Under the pieces are notes generated by a model. It was not told the origin of the DNA. It ran no database searches and worked only from the letters and a program-made list of their open reading frames with translations. Of a stretch of DNA of 64,000 nucleotides, positions 57,987 to 62,772 are shown piece by piece. Positions within the stretch are counted from its first letter, which is position 1; every line of letters starts with the position of its first letter. The stretch spans positions 5,990,920-6,054,919 of the forward strand of contig NZ_LR593887.1 in the NCBI RefSeq assembly GCF_901538355.1, in the 5' to 3' direction. Position numbers and translations under genes: made by a program. Origin of the DNA: Tuwongella immobilis. Its GTDB lineage: Bacteria > Planctomycetota > Planctomycetia > Gemmatales > Gemmataceae.

Positions 57987-58038
57987 TAACAGGGGCTCTG
58001 CCCCTAGCCCCCGGCCAAGGGACTGGCAGCCCCTTGGC
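57987..58038. repeat. GC-rich palindromic intergenic element
   Basis: Two hairpins lie close together: AGGGGC/GCCCCT (57991-58005) with a 3-nt loop, and GCCAAGGG/CCCTTGGC (58014-58038). The sequence between is CCCC-rich. Elements of this look (gggctctgcccc, ccaaggg...cccttgg) are dispersed non-coding palindromes in many bacterial genomes. Here it lies at the downstream end of the toxin-cassette array. Confidence 0.5.
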
Positions 58039-58344
58039 GAACCCCATCTTCACTCGCCTTGGCCCAGCCGAGGCCACGTTCGCTGCGGTCGCTGCGGTCG
58101 CTCCAGAAGGGGTGCTCGCCGGTGGTGCGGATCGTCTCGCCGACGACGGTGAGGTGCAGCACGCGGGTGTAGCGCGTGAAGACCTCCTCGATGACGCGGG
58201 CTTCGATCGGGGCGTGCGGATCGTGCTCATCGCGCGAGTAAACCAAGTCGCCAGGCTGCAGCGTTTCGACGGTGCGGTAGCCACTCCGAAAAACGCAAGT
58301 CGATGCTCCTCGGCATCAAGTATCTGGTCTTTGGCTTTCTCCGA
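58004..58344 (-). pseudogene. HINT (pretoxin processing) domain fragment, N-terminal half
   Basis: The open minus-strand frame contains ETLQPGDLVYSRDE, then EARVIEEVFTRYTRVLHLTV and IRTTGEHPFW, the hallmarks of the HINT domain that releases C-terminal toxins in polymorphic toxins. The expected catalytic Cys-Phe-x-x-GT start is missing; the frame begins directly after a stop codon. After WAKASE it diverges into unrelated residues and stops. A 9-bp tandem duplication doubles the SDR in SDRSDRSER relative to the 62.3-kb copy. With both ends lost, it cannot work. It lies downstream of the SUKH-type immunity gene. Confidence 0.75.
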
Positions 58345-58452
58345 TTACAACGACTATCGATCGTCAACTGGGTCGAATTCATTCACTCGAAAGTATTAAT
58401 TTGCATACAAACCCATCATCACAATGTATACAGCACGACACAGAAAAAATAT

Positions 58453-58995
58453 TCACGAAAATGATCGGAACTTACGTGAACTTTTCAAAAAATGAGCTGG
58501 TGGGAGAATCGTTGATGATAACTCGCCTGAGATCAGGCGAGAAAGAAATTCGGGTGTCGACATATGATATATCTCTGTCATCGTATCTCGTGAGGCTTGA
58601 AGCACTATTGGCCACTTGTCTGGATCGCTGTCAGTTTTCCAATACAGTCGATCTGATTGGACTGTGACTCCGAATGGAAATAACCCACCTTTTTCTGGCC
58701 AAAGAGAATATGGAAACTCGATTCGCAATTCAGCACTTGTGAGATCCTTGATGAACTCTCGTTCGCCATCAAGGATTTCAAACGGTGCAATTTCAATATC
58801 ATATACAGGAGGAAAAAATCCTGGTCCAAACAAAATCACCCACTCTCCCCATTCACCGAGACCAAACGAATCAACAATTTTCTTGAACTCAACAGGGAAA
58901 GTGATCCCAGAACGAGACTCAACTGTACTCCATTCTCGTTGATTCAGAGGGCTCAGGGGAGGTTTAACGATATCAAAAAGATTAATGAAGCTCAT
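58453..58995 (-). CDS. SMI1/KNR4 (SUKH)-type immunity protein
   Basis: This 180-residue protein resembles SUKH-family immunity proteins: VESRSGITFPVEFKKIVDSF near residues 26-45, followed by a G-E-W region and an acidic, aromatic middle (FFPPVYDIEIAPFEIL, FPYSLWPEKGGLFPFG). SUKH proteins neutralise many nuclease toxins. It starts 39 bp after the endonuclease-like toxin module's stop codon on the same strand, the standard toxin-immunity order, so its proposed partner is that module. AAGGA lies upstream of the ATG. Confidence 0.7.
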   Translation of the reverse strand: MSFINLFDIVKPPLSPLNQREWSTVESRSGITFPVEFKKIVDSFGLGEWGEWVILFGPGFFPPVYDIEIAPFEILDGEREFIKDLTSAELRIEFPYSLWPEKGGLFPFGVTVQSDRLYWKTDSDPDKWPIVLQASRDTMTEIYHMSTPEFLSRLISGELSSTILPPAHFLKSSRKFRSFS

Positions 58996-59034
58996 GACCC
59001 CATTTCCTTCTAGGATTCTTATTGAATATGAAAA

Positions 59035-59541
59035 TTATGGAGTCACCCTCGTTGGATTTCGCCGCAAAAAACACATCTTTAACATATACGGCACAAGTTC
59101 AAAATTTTCATAGAGCACTCTTACATTGTAATGGACAGTATCACCTGCCGTTAGCAGACGCTTTACCGCGTTCTCAACTTTCTTCATCATGCTGTTATTG
59201 GTTGTTTTATGAAATAACTGATTAACGCCGCATAGTTTAGAGCCTAATCCTCCAAGTACATTCGCCAAAAGATGGCCTTTGGCATGTCCCACAGATGAAT
59301 CGTAGCCAGGAGGTGTATAGGTTGCTGGCGTTCCAGCCCTTAACACAGATTTGTCCAGATAAGCGTTCACTTCATTCGCTCTGCCGAGGCTATCTACAGG
59401 AAAATCAAGAATACAATCTGCATGATGCGCCCAGACGGCCCAGCCCCACTCCTCACATCCGACGAAGTACGTGTGCCATTCCGAGACTCGGCAGTTGGAG
59501 ACGACCGGCATCATCGGCGGGTTCTTCGGATGCGTCAATCG
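59035..59541 (-). pseudogene. HINT tail fused to an endonuclease-like toxin module
   Basis: The frame begins after a stop codon and has no credible start. It opens with a HINT tail, VVSNCRVSEWHTYFVGCEEW (same as the 62-kb copy), ending in WAVWAHHA. A new C-terminal module follows, with GHAKGHLLANVLGGLGS, then NQLFHKTTNNSMMKKVENAV and TVHYNVRVLYEN. This resembles DNA/RNA non-specific endonuclease toxins (Endonuclea_NS_2-like), in which the His of GHLLA/DRGH is catalytic and an Asn follows. The upstream HINT part is one base out of frame, so it lacks a trunk and start. The SUKH immunity gene follows. Confidence 0.6.
59427..59506. repeat. 80-bp direct repeat, copy 1 (HINT tail)
   Basis: Identical by eye to 62125-62204 over 80 bp. 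It encodes the HINT tail segment NCRVSEWHTYFVGCEEWGW on the minus strand. The similarity continues less exactly into the flanking 60 bp of the HINT domain and stops abruptly on the toxin side. Confidence 0.9.
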
Positions 59542-59617
59542 TCAGCCATTCGCCGGGGGCGGTCAGCAGTCGATCGCCGGCGACGGTGAGGTGCAGCACG
59601 CGGGTGAAGCGCGTGAG
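59512..59617 (-). pseudogene. HINT domain fragment with internal deletion
   Basis: The minus-strand frame reads FTRVLHLTV joined directly to AGDRLLTAPGEWLTIDASEE. In the other copies about 30 residues (GETIRTTGEHPFW through WAKASELV) lie between these parts, so this copy has lost the HINT core by a clean in-frame deletion. It then runs out of frame with the following HINT tail because of a one-base insertion near 59507-59520. Confidence 0.65.
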
Positions 59618-59745
59618 CCATCATGTCATCGGAGGTAGTTTTGGTGTGACGGTAGATGTGCACAAACATCAGCCCCATTTGGTACGGATCGGGGCTGACT
59701 TCGCTGAACTACTTCGATCGCTCCTCAGTCCTTCTGCAACGCAAT

Positions 59746-60315
59746 TCAAGTGGAACTAATTGTTCCATCCGGATGCATCCAAAAGTCGTTGCCCCAGTAC
59801 AATACATAAAACCCACCCTCGATCCACTCTTGGTGCCGCTCATCCTCATTGAGTTCCGCAAGCAACTCCGGGTCTGATCCGGCAAGCAGCCGTTCACGAA
59901 ACAGGTGATTGGGCCAGTCGGCGATGCCGATCATGAACTCCGGGAGCGCGAAGTACTGCACCTGAATTGTACCGGGTGTGAAGCCGATGTCCGCAGACCA
60001 ACGCGAGCGGGCATCGAGAATGTGTTGCACTGAAAACTCACTTTGTTGGCTCTGTGGCCATGCTGGGTCGATCATGGCAGGAATGGGCAGTATCTCATGC
60101 CGTAGATAGGTGCCGTCAGCCGAGAAGAACACGCCCAACTCCGGACCGACTGGGTACGGCCCTGGCTGACGGAGCCCACGTTGAGGTGGTAATCTACCTA
60201 GAATTGCCAGACTGCCATCAGGGAGAGTACCAGGCTGATATTGCAGCCAATCCAATCCGCGAAATGCAATCGGGTAAAGGCGGCCTGGCGTATAGTTGGT
60301 CATCTGCGGAGTCAT
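59746..60315 (-). CDS. Putative immunity-like protein (partner of the truncated module)
   Basis: This 189-residue cytoplasmic protein has a good start: GAGGGA lies just before the ATG at 60315. It is acidic and aromatic (LDWLQYQPGTLPDGSLAIL, EDERHQEWIEGGFYVLYWGN). I do not recognise a family. It lies 30 bp after the truncated module at 60346, on the same strand. Immunity function is inferred only from position. Confidence 0.5.
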   Translation of the reverse strand: MTPQMTNYTPGRLYPIAFRGLDWLQYQPGTLPDGSLAILGRLPPQRGLRQPGPYPVGPELGVFFSADGTYLRHEILPIPAMIDPAWPQSQQSEFSVQHILDARSRWSADIGFTPGTIQVQYFALPEFMIGIADWPNHLFRERLLAGSDPELLAELNEDERHQEWIEGGFYVLYWGNDFWMHPDGTISST

Positions 60316-60345
60316 GAAACATCCCTCACATTGTTGTCCGTGCTG

Positions 60346-60757
60346 TTAACGGTGGGAGGCAGTCCAACCACCATAGCCTTGTTCCTCGATTTCGTCCCAT
60401 GTCCCGTCGGCTGCACCCGATTCCTGGTGAAGATTCCAACCATCGCTGCGAACAAGACCCCGCAGAACGACTTCGGCGTTATAATATCCAGTGGGCAGTT
60501 TATCGACCTCGGCGGTGATGCGAATGCCCAGCGGAAAGCCATTGGTCACGAAGGACTTCGCAGTAGGTGTCGTGGCCGAGTGATGCGGTAAGTGGCCCAC
60601 CGCACCCGTGAGGCTGCCGTATCGCTGGTTGTTGATGTTATCCGCAGCGTTAAGTTGTTTGCCTACGAACACCGACCAACCTGCTGCGACGTTCCCACTG
60701 CCACTGCAGTCCGGAGATGGGCGTTTTGCTTGACATCTCCCATTCGACGTTGACGCT
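60346..60757 (-). pseudogene. Truncated toxin-like C-terminal module
   Basis: An open frame without a start runs through a Gly/Ser segment (CSGSGNVAAGWSVFVG) and then LNAADNINNQRYGSLTGAVG, KLPTGYYNAEVVLRGLV and a polar C-terminus. The first part overlaps the stop of the preceding gene, so this looks like the surviving 3' part of a larger gene joined there. It lies before its own partner-like gene (59746-60315). I do not recognise the fold. Confidence 0.4.
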
Positions 60758-60761
60758 ATTT

Positions 60762-61409
60762 CTACTCGTTGACAGGAGGAATGTAGGCGCCGGGGATTTT
60801 GTACTTGTTAAAGTGACCGATTTTGCCGATCGGTTCATCGTTCTGGAAAACGAGCGGAACCCGCCCACCCTTGGATGGATCGACGTACAAAAACTCGATA
60901 CCATGCCCATATTCGCAATCAGCAGACGGAGGCAGTCCCAACTTGGGACCAGCATTATCGATCCACCAGACATCGTCTACATCTGGCCGCTCGATTGTTG
61001 TTAAGACATATGCCGCGTTAGACTGAGAGGCAAACGTGATGATCAATTGTTCCCAGCGTTCTTGCCGATCTCCCTTTTCATGCGTTGAATGCCAAAATAC
61101 AGTGCGGCTTGGAGTATCACTGTGATAAAACACACCCCACACCTCCATGAAACTTGCTCGAAGTGAAAGGTTGATATGCTGACCATCTGACAGAAGGCGA
61201 GCCAGTTCAGTTCGCCACTGCTGATAACTCGCCTCCGATAGACGGAGGTGACCAGCCGTTTTATCAATGATGATGGGTCGTTGGGATGGAAGCAGACGTA
61301 CATTAGAAGTAGACAATATCACATCTGCATCAATCGCCTCAATTGCCCCTGCTGGAGTCAACGATTGACCGAAGTCTGGGTATAAATGGTATTGCAAGTG
61401 AGATCCCAT
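60762..61409 (-). CDS. Putative immunity-like protein following the HINT-linked toxin module
   Basis: The chosen ATG at 61409 has AAGGA eight nt upstream and lies 59 bp after the stop codon of the toxin module at 61469. The 215-residue product is soluble and acidic, with an aspartate/tryptophan-rich middle (IERPDVDDVWWIDNAG). It resembles no family I recognise. Position after a HINT-toxin module is the usual place for an immunity gene; this is the basis of the call. Confidence 0.5.
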   Translation of the reverse strand: MGSHLQYHLYPDFGQSLTPAGAIEAIDADVILSTSNVRLLPSQRPIIIDKTAGHLRLSEASYQQWRTELARLLSDGQHINLSLRASFMEVWGVFYHSDTPSRTVFWHSTHEKGDRQERWEQLIITFASQSNAAYVLTTIERPDVDDVWWIDNAGPKLGLPPSADCEYGHGIEFLYVDPSKGGRVPLVFQNDEPIGKIGHFNKYKIPGAYIPPVNE

Positions 61410-61468
61410 CTTGATCGTCCTTATTGAGAACAATAATCACTCCGATTCCCAACAAACTGCTTACTTCT

Positions 61469-62365
61469 TTAATCAGTCACTTCCCAATCATCAGGAAAAA
61501 TTTCTGGCGCGATCGCAGGGTCTTGCATCCCATATCGCTCGCCTCTGAATGTGAAGTAATGTACTATTTGCTGTGAGTCCGTAAATCGCGTCGAGAGGCC
61601 AAGGTCAGCGATTTCAGCCTGAACATCGAAATGACTAAATGGGATAGATAGTTCTCGGTAAATGTCTGAGACAGCGGTTCGTGCTGTCTTCCCGCCGAAG
61701 ATAACCTGTACAGCAAGCGCTCGCGCCCTTGCGACAATCGCATGACGAATGAACTGGACTTTCTTGCCAGTCAGACTGATCCCAATCTCAAAGCTTTGTG
61801 AACTGCTTGAGAAGTCGATCTCAATCCAATTCGTGCCATCTGCTCGATAGATACCCTCCGCATAACGAACAATCTGCGAAGTCGAGAATCGTCTTGCTCG
61901 TTGCTTGTAAAGACCACCGATATTCGACGCAGGCCCGTCAGATCGGGCCTCTCGATCTTGTTGATCACTTCGGACTGCTTCAGCGATTTCTGCTGTTGAG
62001 AACTGCTGCAAGGTGCCAAAAATATCTCGCACATACCTATCGATCTGAACATTGGGCGGACGACGATTGTTTTCAACAACGATCCAATCTCCTCCCCTTA
62101 CATGCTCGACCGTGTACGCATGAAGCGCCCAGACGGCCCAGCCCCACTCCTCACATCCGACGAAGTACGTGTGCCATTCCGAGACTCGGCAGTTGGAGAC
62201 GACCTCATCATCGGCGGTTTCTTCGGCTGCGTCGATGGTGAGCCACTCGCCACTTGCTGCGAGCAGCCGATCGCCGGCAACGAGTTCACTCGCTTTGGCC
62301 CAGCAGAGGCCGCGTTCGCTGCGGTCGCTCCAGAACGGATGCTCACCGGTGGTGCGTCTAGTGGA
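61469..62365 (-). pseudogene. HINT C-terminal half fused to an unrecognised toxin-like module
   Basis: The minus-strand frame reads RRTTGEHPFWSDRSERGL, then WAKASELVAGDRLLAASGEW and VVSNCRVSEWHTYFVG, ending HAYTVEHVRGGDWIVVENN, a proper HINT C-terminal half. The next 210 residues are a new module (ARRFSTSQIVRYAEGIYRAD, VIFGGKTARTAVSDIYREL) I do not recognise. The HINT N-terminal half is missing. The frame continues upstream into a 55-residue stretch starting at 62533, but a TGA (62366-62368) separates them. Without that stop the frame would run for 354 codons. It is followed by a partner-like gene. Confidence 0.6.
62125..62204. repeat. 80-bp direct repeat, copy 2 (HINT tail)
   Basis: Identical by eye to 59427-59506. 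It lies within the HINT tail of the 61469-62365 frame and encodes the segment NCRVSEWHTYFVGCEEWGW. Confidence 0.9.
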
Positions 62366-62533
62366 TCAACGATGTCGATTTCCAGGGCTATTCTTCTGCT
62401 CCAGCCTGAAAATGACTTCGCTATACCCCGCAATTCGACGTTGTCGGTCCACTACTTCGATGGCCAAAAGGACGTTGTCGCGACAAAGGACCGTTGTTCT
62501 TTTCGGGGAGGATAAACGAGTTGCTTCAATCAT
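62366..62533 (-). CDS. Short ORF upstream of the HINT half, separated by a TGA
   Basis: This 55-residue frame begins ATG at 62533, overlapping the preceding fragment's stop (ATGA), and ends with a TGA at 62366-62368. It contains VLLAIEVVDRQRRIAGYSEV. The same reading frame continues after the TGA into the HINT half. It may be a piece of the upstream fragment's gene or the original N-terminal side of a fusion. No family is recognised. Confidence 0.35.
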   Translation of the reverse strand: MIEATRLSSPKRTTVLCRDNVLLAIEVVDRQRRIAGYSEVIFRLEQKNSPGNRHR

Positions 62534-62772
62534 GCCGAACGAAGATTCGGTGATTCCAATGCCTCGATTGCTGAGATGATCATCGGGATGACTTCATTTG
62601 GCTCATCGGTTTTCATTTCATGAACTCCGAATGGCGAGGACCACACTTTGAATGGAACTGCAAAGCTGAAGTGGCCATGAACCAAACGTGACGACAGAAT
62701 CGCATCATGAATTTTCAGCTCGCTCCAGCGTTGGTTTTGGTGGCGAGTGGAATCATGCTTGAATCTGAGCGA
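62530..62772 (-). pseudogene. Fragment of an unknown gene at the head of the toxin array
   Basis: The minus-strand frame runs 80 codons from a stop codon to TGA at 62530-62532, with no start near its beginning. It contains RWSELKIHDAILSSRLVHGH then FSFAVPFKVWSSPFGVHE and a C-terminal helix, a protein-like composition. It may be the end of an immunity or other gene whose beginning is lost. It overlaps the next short frame by ATGA. Confidence 0.4.

Follow-up and report, generated by a model that had tools for sequence, protein, structure and literature searches.

What are broken HINT domains doing in a row of toxin-like genes that has no delivery trunk? The question is raised by the minus strand of a 64,000-nucleotide (nt) stretch of the Tuwongella immobilis chromosome (hereafter the window; C1:5990920-6054919, C1 being the chromosome contig of a genome that consists of one contig of 6.69 Mb), where an island comprises two HINT-linked toxin-tip modules, one unassigned gene pair and one lone HINT half. 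Judging from the sequence, we think it likely that this island is an orphan tip-immunity portion of a polymorphic-toxin stock spread over the whole chromosome, whose tips are exchanged through HINT DNA and whose toxin halves are largely silent here.

HINT DNA had been predicted on the minus strand at 62.3, 59.5 and 58.1 kb of the window, and DNA matches confirmed all three pieces. Their matches to other chromosomal copies of the same type (HINT-A) mostly show 81-95% identity, with E-values down to 1e-100 and a lowest identity of 75% among the long matches; with identities of up to 95% at such E-values, the pieces are not chance similarities. The 62.3-kb piece, which forms a single open frame of 298 amino acids (aa) together with the tip behind it (tip 1), is 87% identical to the copy at C1:898306 and 85% identical to that of an intact toxin at C1:6087014, and the 58.1-kb piece is 91-94% identical to C1:898306 and C1:1571012. 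At the protein level the 62.3-kb piece gives a partial match over the PT-HINT cut-off (PF07591; 41.9 bits, cut-off 27.7), the 58.1-kb piece falls under it (25.3 bits) and the 59.5-kb piece reaches only an E-value of 0.15. The whole-genome profile list thus holds two partial PF07591 matches and no complete one over cut-off within the window, in keeping with the predicted absence of a trunk there. Sequencing errors in a single gene, the refutation foreseen with the original prediction, fail as an explanation: the pieces at 58.1 and 62.3 kb cover overlapping parts of the HINT query (909-1134 and 1063-1300) with different sequences, and the third copy has a deletion of its own. They thus represent copies of a single HINT type that overlap, and not an assembly error. 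The ~80-nt deletion in this third copy recurs at C1:900.1k and C1:5976.9k, and only its final 29 residues are in frame with the Endonuclea_NS_2 tip that follows.

These pieces belong to a large chromosomal stock, in which few toxin genes appear to carry the delivery trunk and most tips would stand elsewhere, behind truncated HINT domains. A profile search of the chromosome gave 49 PF07591 matches, 45 of them over the cut-off; when 61 family genomes, sampled evenly from a larger set, were searched separately, 30 had any match, and T. immobilis, with 47 in that run, was followed by genomes with 21, 11 and 9 (the 60 others span 0-21). Applying a profile built from 13 of the genome's own HINTs to 18 stretches fetched for HINT, we counted 77 HINT rows, grouped in 13 clusters; of these rows, 15 are full, 33 keep the 3' end but lack the 5' end and 29 lack the 3' end. 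Tips were counted where at least 40 aa follow in frame, as they do behind 42 of the 48 HINT 3' ends, and fall into 35 tip clusters; only 4 HINTs in these stretches have at least 300 aa of trunk in frame. The HINT count is a lower bound, further units having been found outside the stretches at C1:5976.8k (HINT-A) and at C1:4037735-4038658 (HINT with an NS_2 tip). The latter unit (L051:1735-2658) has a diverged HINT with a PF07591 E-value of 1.1e-5, just under the cut-off and not among the genome's own PF07591 matches, and an NS_2-like tip (E-value 2.5e-4).

A full-length toxin with matching HINT DNA, such as the original prediction called for, lies at C1:6086528-6094243, 31.6 kb beyond the window and, like the island, on the minus strand. 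It encodes 2572 aa with FG-GAP, Calx-beta, SdrD_B and PT-HINT (2.2e-19) domains and a Tox-REase-2 tip (7.2e-8). At the DNA level, the long window pieces match its HINT at 85-87%, and window pieces reach up to 94-95% with other copies; a second, truncated HINT-A (query 871-1218) stands directly behind the toxin. The idea that displaced tips retain HINT fragments and not trunk sequence held as far as HINT is the shared part; it is not the sole shared DNA, given that the A-type copies at C1:898.1k and C1:899.8k retain ~170 nt of trunk and that many B-type orphans have a common leader of at most ~370 bp, the left part of which also precedes trunk-bearing toxins.

We asked what traces exchange might have left in the HINT copies themselves. 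Compared with each other, the pieces at 59.5 and 62.3 kb match at 63 of 79 positions in their first part and then, almost identically, at 84 of 85 positions up to the tip, where similarity ends. MaxChi gave p = 0.0005 for this contrast, the least value possible with 2000 permutations, both with A6087014 and with A5977 as the second parent. In a set of 23 B-type units the HINTs are similar (identity 0.77-0.95, median 0.88), and the next 150 nt, at the tip start, have a median identity of 0.53 versus 0.52 in shuffles, 20 of 253 pairs exceeding the shuffle maximum of 0.57 and one pair reaching 1.00. The pairwise homoplasy index (PHI) test on these 23 HINTs rejected the absence of recombination at three window sizes (p = 0.0005, 64 sites).

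Two pairs of distant loci illustrate the pattern. The tips at C1:261194 and C1:1893225, 1.6 Mb apart and the one B-type pair at 1.00, are identical over 236/236 nt and stand behind HINTs that match at only 212/240 (72/85 over the final 85 nt); the mismatch nearest the tip sits in the terminal Asn codon. A D-type tip-immunity block shared by C1:5139766 and C1:1370698, 3.8 Mb apart, is 95-100% identical per 100 nt over 1.5 kb and begins in the last 100 nt of HINT; identity falls to 88% over the preceding 100 nt, and further upstream the sequences are unrelated. These HINTs match at 83/85 in the last 85 nt and at 212/230 over 230 nt. In 16 sequences from HINT families A-E, comparisons between families over the final 26 columns show the same codon for the same residue in 1091 of 1705 cases, as compared with 678 expected from codon usage. 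This is an observed-to-expected ratio of 1.61, versus 1.08-1.35 in four earlier blocks (column permutation p = 0.0093), and by this measure the DNA likeness of the HINT end among diverged families exceeds what protein conservation accounts for. The footprints point to the HINT end, not to the domain as a whole, and MaxChi, PHI, the contrasts between tip and HINT identity and the codon test together support, as footprints, the original prediction that HINT DNA is the recombination handle.

As many HINT copies are near-identical in DNA, recombination between them would move tips. In the mechanism that we propose, homologous recombination or gene conversion would carry a tip from one HINT to another, most often within a zone that covers the final 80-120 nt of HINT and ends at the tip; this zone is read from sequence footprints rather than from observed events. 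Recombination of the RecA type would load orphan tips onto trunks and park the old ones; the silent units would then form a store, and their antidotes may protect against kin. A broader proposal, to which we would give slightly less than an even chance, is that tips of several diverged HINT families, on unrelated trunks, use the last ~80-110 nt of HINT as a shared docking sequence, so that HINT would both cleave itself from the protein and join genes, and tips would circulate chromosome-wide.

Several observations weigh against this picture. With two other parents MaxChi was weak (p = 0.021 and 0.073); the C1:5139766 block has no clean right end, its similarity decaying in another HINT fragment and then resuming; and in the codon test the GEHPFW block (columns 56-84) is also in excess (ratio 1.35), the sequences being related and non-independent. 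No genome of the same genus appeared among the relatives, and exchange is seen as sequence footprints and not as an event between strains. Within the island, neither tip 1 nor the gene behind it (gene 1) has a family name, gene 1 matching no Pfam or NCBIfam family, a single-sequence AlphaFold model of tip 1 was too poor to use (mean predicted local distance difference test score 45.5), the middle gene pair has neither HINT nor a Pfam or NCBIfam match, and the NS_2 frame might be translated, having TTG and ATG codons ahead of its HINT remnant (codons 2, 10 and 11), without a clear ribosome-binding site.

Could the island instead be a dead relic, one of several dispersed copies of a single toxin island that insertion sequences (IS) and repeats resembling miniature inverted-repeat transposable elements (MITE) have cut up, the likeness of the HINTs reflecting recent duplication with no further exchange? 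We regard this as unlikely. It accords with the three HINT edges in the window that lie at repeats or at a transposase end, with the HINT deletion common to three loci, with the transposase-HINT junction shared by the 58.1-kb and 5977-kb pieces and with an insertion carrying an integrase-core frame that breaks a tip at C1:1893.46k. However, simple duplication does not explain why a tip identical at 236/236 follows HINTs matching at 212/240, and neither does it yield 84/85 next to 63/79 within one HINT piece or a PHI p-value of 0.0005.

It is highly improbable that protein-level selection alone keeps the HINT end, the sharing of DNA then being due to purifying selection plus codon bias. The end block is indeed the best conserved as protein, with 1918 of 2503 residue comparisons between families identical versus 3280 of 7537 before it, but identical residues there share their codon 1.61 times as often as expected, and the deleted and frameshifted HINT piece is mosaic too. 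We also think it very unlikely that the units are small expressed toxins, the leader acting as their promoter and translation starting in the 3' half of HINT (a GTG or ATG in ...LTLVMSGQL...). The common leader of many B-type orphans, whose left part recurs before trunk-bearing toxins, would suit such units, as would the ATG codons in the NS_2 frame of the window; against this, the HINT frame in the B-type leader has a stop shortly before the junction (read by eye), HINT-tip 1 lacks a start codon before codon 111, and the proteins would be without a trunk for export.

Exchange through HINT DNA was also considered in other members of the family. In five relatives picked for many HINT matches (HINTs without a 3' end being excluded from the pair comparison), 22 of 23 pairs with a HINT identity of at least 0.80 have unrelated tips (identity at most 0.62), the remaining pair being identical; 4 of the 5 relatives supply such pairs of similar HINTs with unrelated tips. 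In one relative, G001, an identical HINT end and tip start occur twice, ~84 kb apart (L045 and L046, at C1:3.91M and C1:3.99M of that genome). The genes that flank the island, an HscA/DnaK-like gene and a zinc-ribbon gene, are 57-63% and 35-42% identical, respectively, over their full length in genomes of the same family. In the relatives they were not found adjoining each other: they are ~305 kb apart in single-contig G001, and in the other relatives with both genes they lie on different contigs, mostly of drafts.

The order of the island along the minus strand, from 62.46 to 57.99 kb (Table 1), is a MITE-like repeat, the HINT-A 3' half with tip 1, immunity-like gene 1, a 108-aa frame, a 189-aa gene, the deleted HINT-A piece with the NS_2 tip, a SUKH-like gene, the end of an IS4/5-type transposase gene, the HINT-A 5' half and a 66-bp dispersed repeat. 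Its G+C content is 40-57% in 500-base windows between 58.25 and 62.5 kb, and that of the DnaK-like gene is 59-63%.

Table 1. Features of the tip-immunity island (window coordinates).
Feature	Position	Strand	Basis or remark
MITE-like dispersed repeat, 95 bp, inverted ends, TA-flanked	62358..62452	-	23 genome matches; 5' edge of 62.3-kb HINT piece
HINT-A 3' half (~codon 55 to end; terminal residues WALHA)	62119..62356	-	PF07591 E 5.2e-10, profile 59-124
Tip 1, toxin-like, in frame with HINT piece	61469..62116	-	paralogous frames
Immunity-like gene 1 (215 aa); ATG preceded by AAGGA (by eye)	60762..61409	-	position and start signal
Reading frame of 108 aa, unassigned	60346..60672	-	no family match, no HINT
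Immunity-like gene, 189 aa, ATG with GAGGG upstream (by eye)	59746..60315	-	position
HINT-A piece with ~80-nt internal deletion, then frameshift	59421..59616	-	query 1013-1055 and 1137-1300
Final 29 HINT residues (ending WAHHA) fused to Endonuclea_NS_2 nuclease tip	59035..59538	-	PF13930 E 7.9e-12
SUKH-like immunity gene, 180 aa	58453..58995	-	SUKH_6 E 2e-5, SMI1_KNR4 E 9e-4, both below curated cut-offs
IS4/5-type transposase gene end	58284..58371	-	5' edge of lone HINT half
HINT-A 5' half, no tip behind	58049..58283	-	PF07591 E 7e-5, profile 6-72
Dispersed repeat, ~66 bp	57990..58055	.	3' edge of lone HINT half; 37 genome matches including itself, some short

Three toxin-immunity modules bordered by HINT had been proposed, and the proposal stood in part. 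A trunkless tip followed by an immunity gene is seen in the NS_2 and SUKH-like pair and, by position only, in tip 1 and gene 1, and in both of these HINT marks the border. The middle pair, without HINT, is a toxin-immunity pair only by position, and the 58.1-kb piece has no tip. Profile searches likewise recovered HINT and Endonuclea_NS_2 but nothing in the middle pair, SUKH_6 remaining below its cut-off (25.5 bits versus 27). At an E-value of 0.01, a search for the NS_2 tip in 26 fetched regions of the genome matched only itself and missed the diverged NS_2-like tip of L051.

Tip 1 has three paralogous frames of 30-44% identity in the fetched stretches of the genome, one of them HINT-A-linked (C1:1571240-1572004), and the EIDF...FE motifs conserved among them hint, as a guess, at a restriction-endonuclease-like nuclease. 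The single match to tip 1 outside the genome (L037), in a frame that we take to be helix-turn-helix/WYL regulator-like, was rejected, only a short motif being common to both.

The toxin halves of the island look largely silent and partly decayed, given that there is no trunk, that the first start codon of the 298-codon HINT-tip 1 frame (codon 111) lies inside the tip, that a deletion and a frameshift precede the NS_2 tip, and that the terminal Asn of the HINT C-terminal block is lost. The role of this residue is known from intein chemistry; it is absent from both HINT ends in the window (WALHA and WAHHA), and all 4 trunk-bearing toxins end their HINT in W(A/V)HN. The three downstream genes each keep an ATG with a Shine-Dalgarno-like sequence (read by eye), and for that reason probably still give immunity.

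Do the HINT edges in the window record the displacement of tips, as had been suggested? Three of them abut a MITE-like repeat, a transposase end and a 66-bp repeat. They therefore need not be such scars, and it was probably mobile repeats, not tip exchange, that cut the outer edges. The MITE-like repeat folds better than shuffles (z = -2.4); of its 23 matches, 21 are at least 64 nt long. More than half of these longer copies (12) fall beyond the HINT-fetched stretches, including 3 that are no more than ~2 kb from the HINT piece at 5977 kb. Given these outside copies and its MITE-like look, we dropped the notion that it is a cassette terminus. The 5' flank of the 58.1-kb piece, considered as a second leader, was rejected as the end of an IS4/5-type transposase gene; its DNA is 90-91% identical to C1:4040805 and C1:5724529 and 81% to C1:5977125, where the transposase-HINT junction is identical, and reading frames at C1:4040k match DDE_Tnp_1 (1.3e-9) and DUF4096 (3.1e-25).

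Some further features of the stock were observed. A fixed junction at HINT profile position 55-59 was considered and rejected: Pfam matches in the relatives start there too, some inside long frames, and the many N-truncated starts are partly an effect of local alignment. The common HINT start of B-type units, with its shared leader and HINT-D-like stretch, is read as common descent and not as a site-specific cut. The first ~95 bp of that leader (L009-L011 and other arrays; C1:255-310k, 1.89M and 4.07M) recur alone, about every kb, at C1:266-277k, a stretch rich in short genes; the leader is possibly a shared promoter or terminator unit. Of the 44 trunkless HINT ends, 14 have HTD-x-V in place of HTYFV (seen in families B and D and, at the DNA level, in one A copy), as against none of the 4 trunk-bearing ones; this is a recurrent change of Tyr to Asp. 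One trunk-bearing toxin, L011:2228-5260 (C1:292228-295260), has an unusual tip that matches the BMT5-like rRNA methyltransferase family (PF10354, E-value 1.4e-17). At C1:1893462-1894728 (L017), a 1267-bp insertion with transposase-like frames, presumably IS3-like, breaks a tip whose start is identical to that at C1:261k; a near-identical frame at L051 matches an integrase core.

How does this stock compare with known systems, as described in the available parts of the papers cited? In Neisseria maf islands, MafB-CT (C-terminal) cassettes are trunkless tips with immunity genes (PMC4524018, PMC4287609), some without an initiation codon (PMC4287609), and the sequence they share with the full toxin can include the Hint (bacterial intein-like, BIL) domain, a proposed site of homologous recombination (PMC4524018). 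The likeness to T. immobilis lies in the trunkless tips with immunity genes and in a piece, HINT included, shared with a full toxin. Those cassettes, however, lie downstream of mafB in few islands and with a DUF1020 trunk, whereas here there are 13 chromosomal clusters and other trunks, often only the 3' part of HINT is present, and the HINT end is common to diverged HINT families. In the 3 of the 4 trunk-bearing toxins that were scanned with Pfam, neither DUF1020 (the MafB N-terminal domain) nor the VENN pretoxin domain or RHS repeats gave a match.

In contact-dependent inhibition (CDI) systems, orphan cdiA-CT/cdiI modules are tip fragments without initiation signals, bounded by the short conserved VENN pretoxin sequence, one orphan block being conserved over the whole interval between successive VENN sequences (PMC3150448); BIL/PT-HINT CdiA proteins are known in Pseudomonas (PMC4725963). 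The tip fragments bounded by a short conserved sequence are alike, as is, in HINT-tip 1 though less clearly in the NS_2 frame, the lack of an initiation signal; the bounding sequence is HINT here and VENN there. The main and orphan rhs-CT/rhsI genes of Salmonella share 522 bp at 95% identity, and recombination there is reported to load the orphan tip (PMC3967940), which resembles the near-identical DNA common to main and orphan genes in T. immobilis, where HINT takes the place of RHS. Recombination at a short pretoxin sequence has thus been described for both CDI (VENN; PMC3150448) and Rhs (PMC3967940). A survey of polymorphic toxins presents HINT as a processing peptidase before variable tips, the order of tip and immunity gene, and standalone cassettes exchanged by recombination, and it lists planctomycetes for several toxin families (PMC3482391); its available part does not describe HINT DNA as an exchange site, nor arrays so large. 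Among the matches listed in a search of the open-access literature by title and start of abstract, no planctomycete case like this one was found.

Orphan cassettes of the CDI, Rhs and MafB kind are therefore known, and what is new is the scale, the dispersal and the cross-family sharing of the HINT end. Orphan tips in the work cited, as far as its available parts go, are from Proteobacteria and lie next to the parent gene, whereas here ~10 trunkless HINT-tip units per trunk-bearing toxin occur at 13 places on one chromosome of a planctomycete family, with enough near-identical copies to map exchange footprints on nucleotides and to make tip swapping at a pretoxin domain testable inside one genome.

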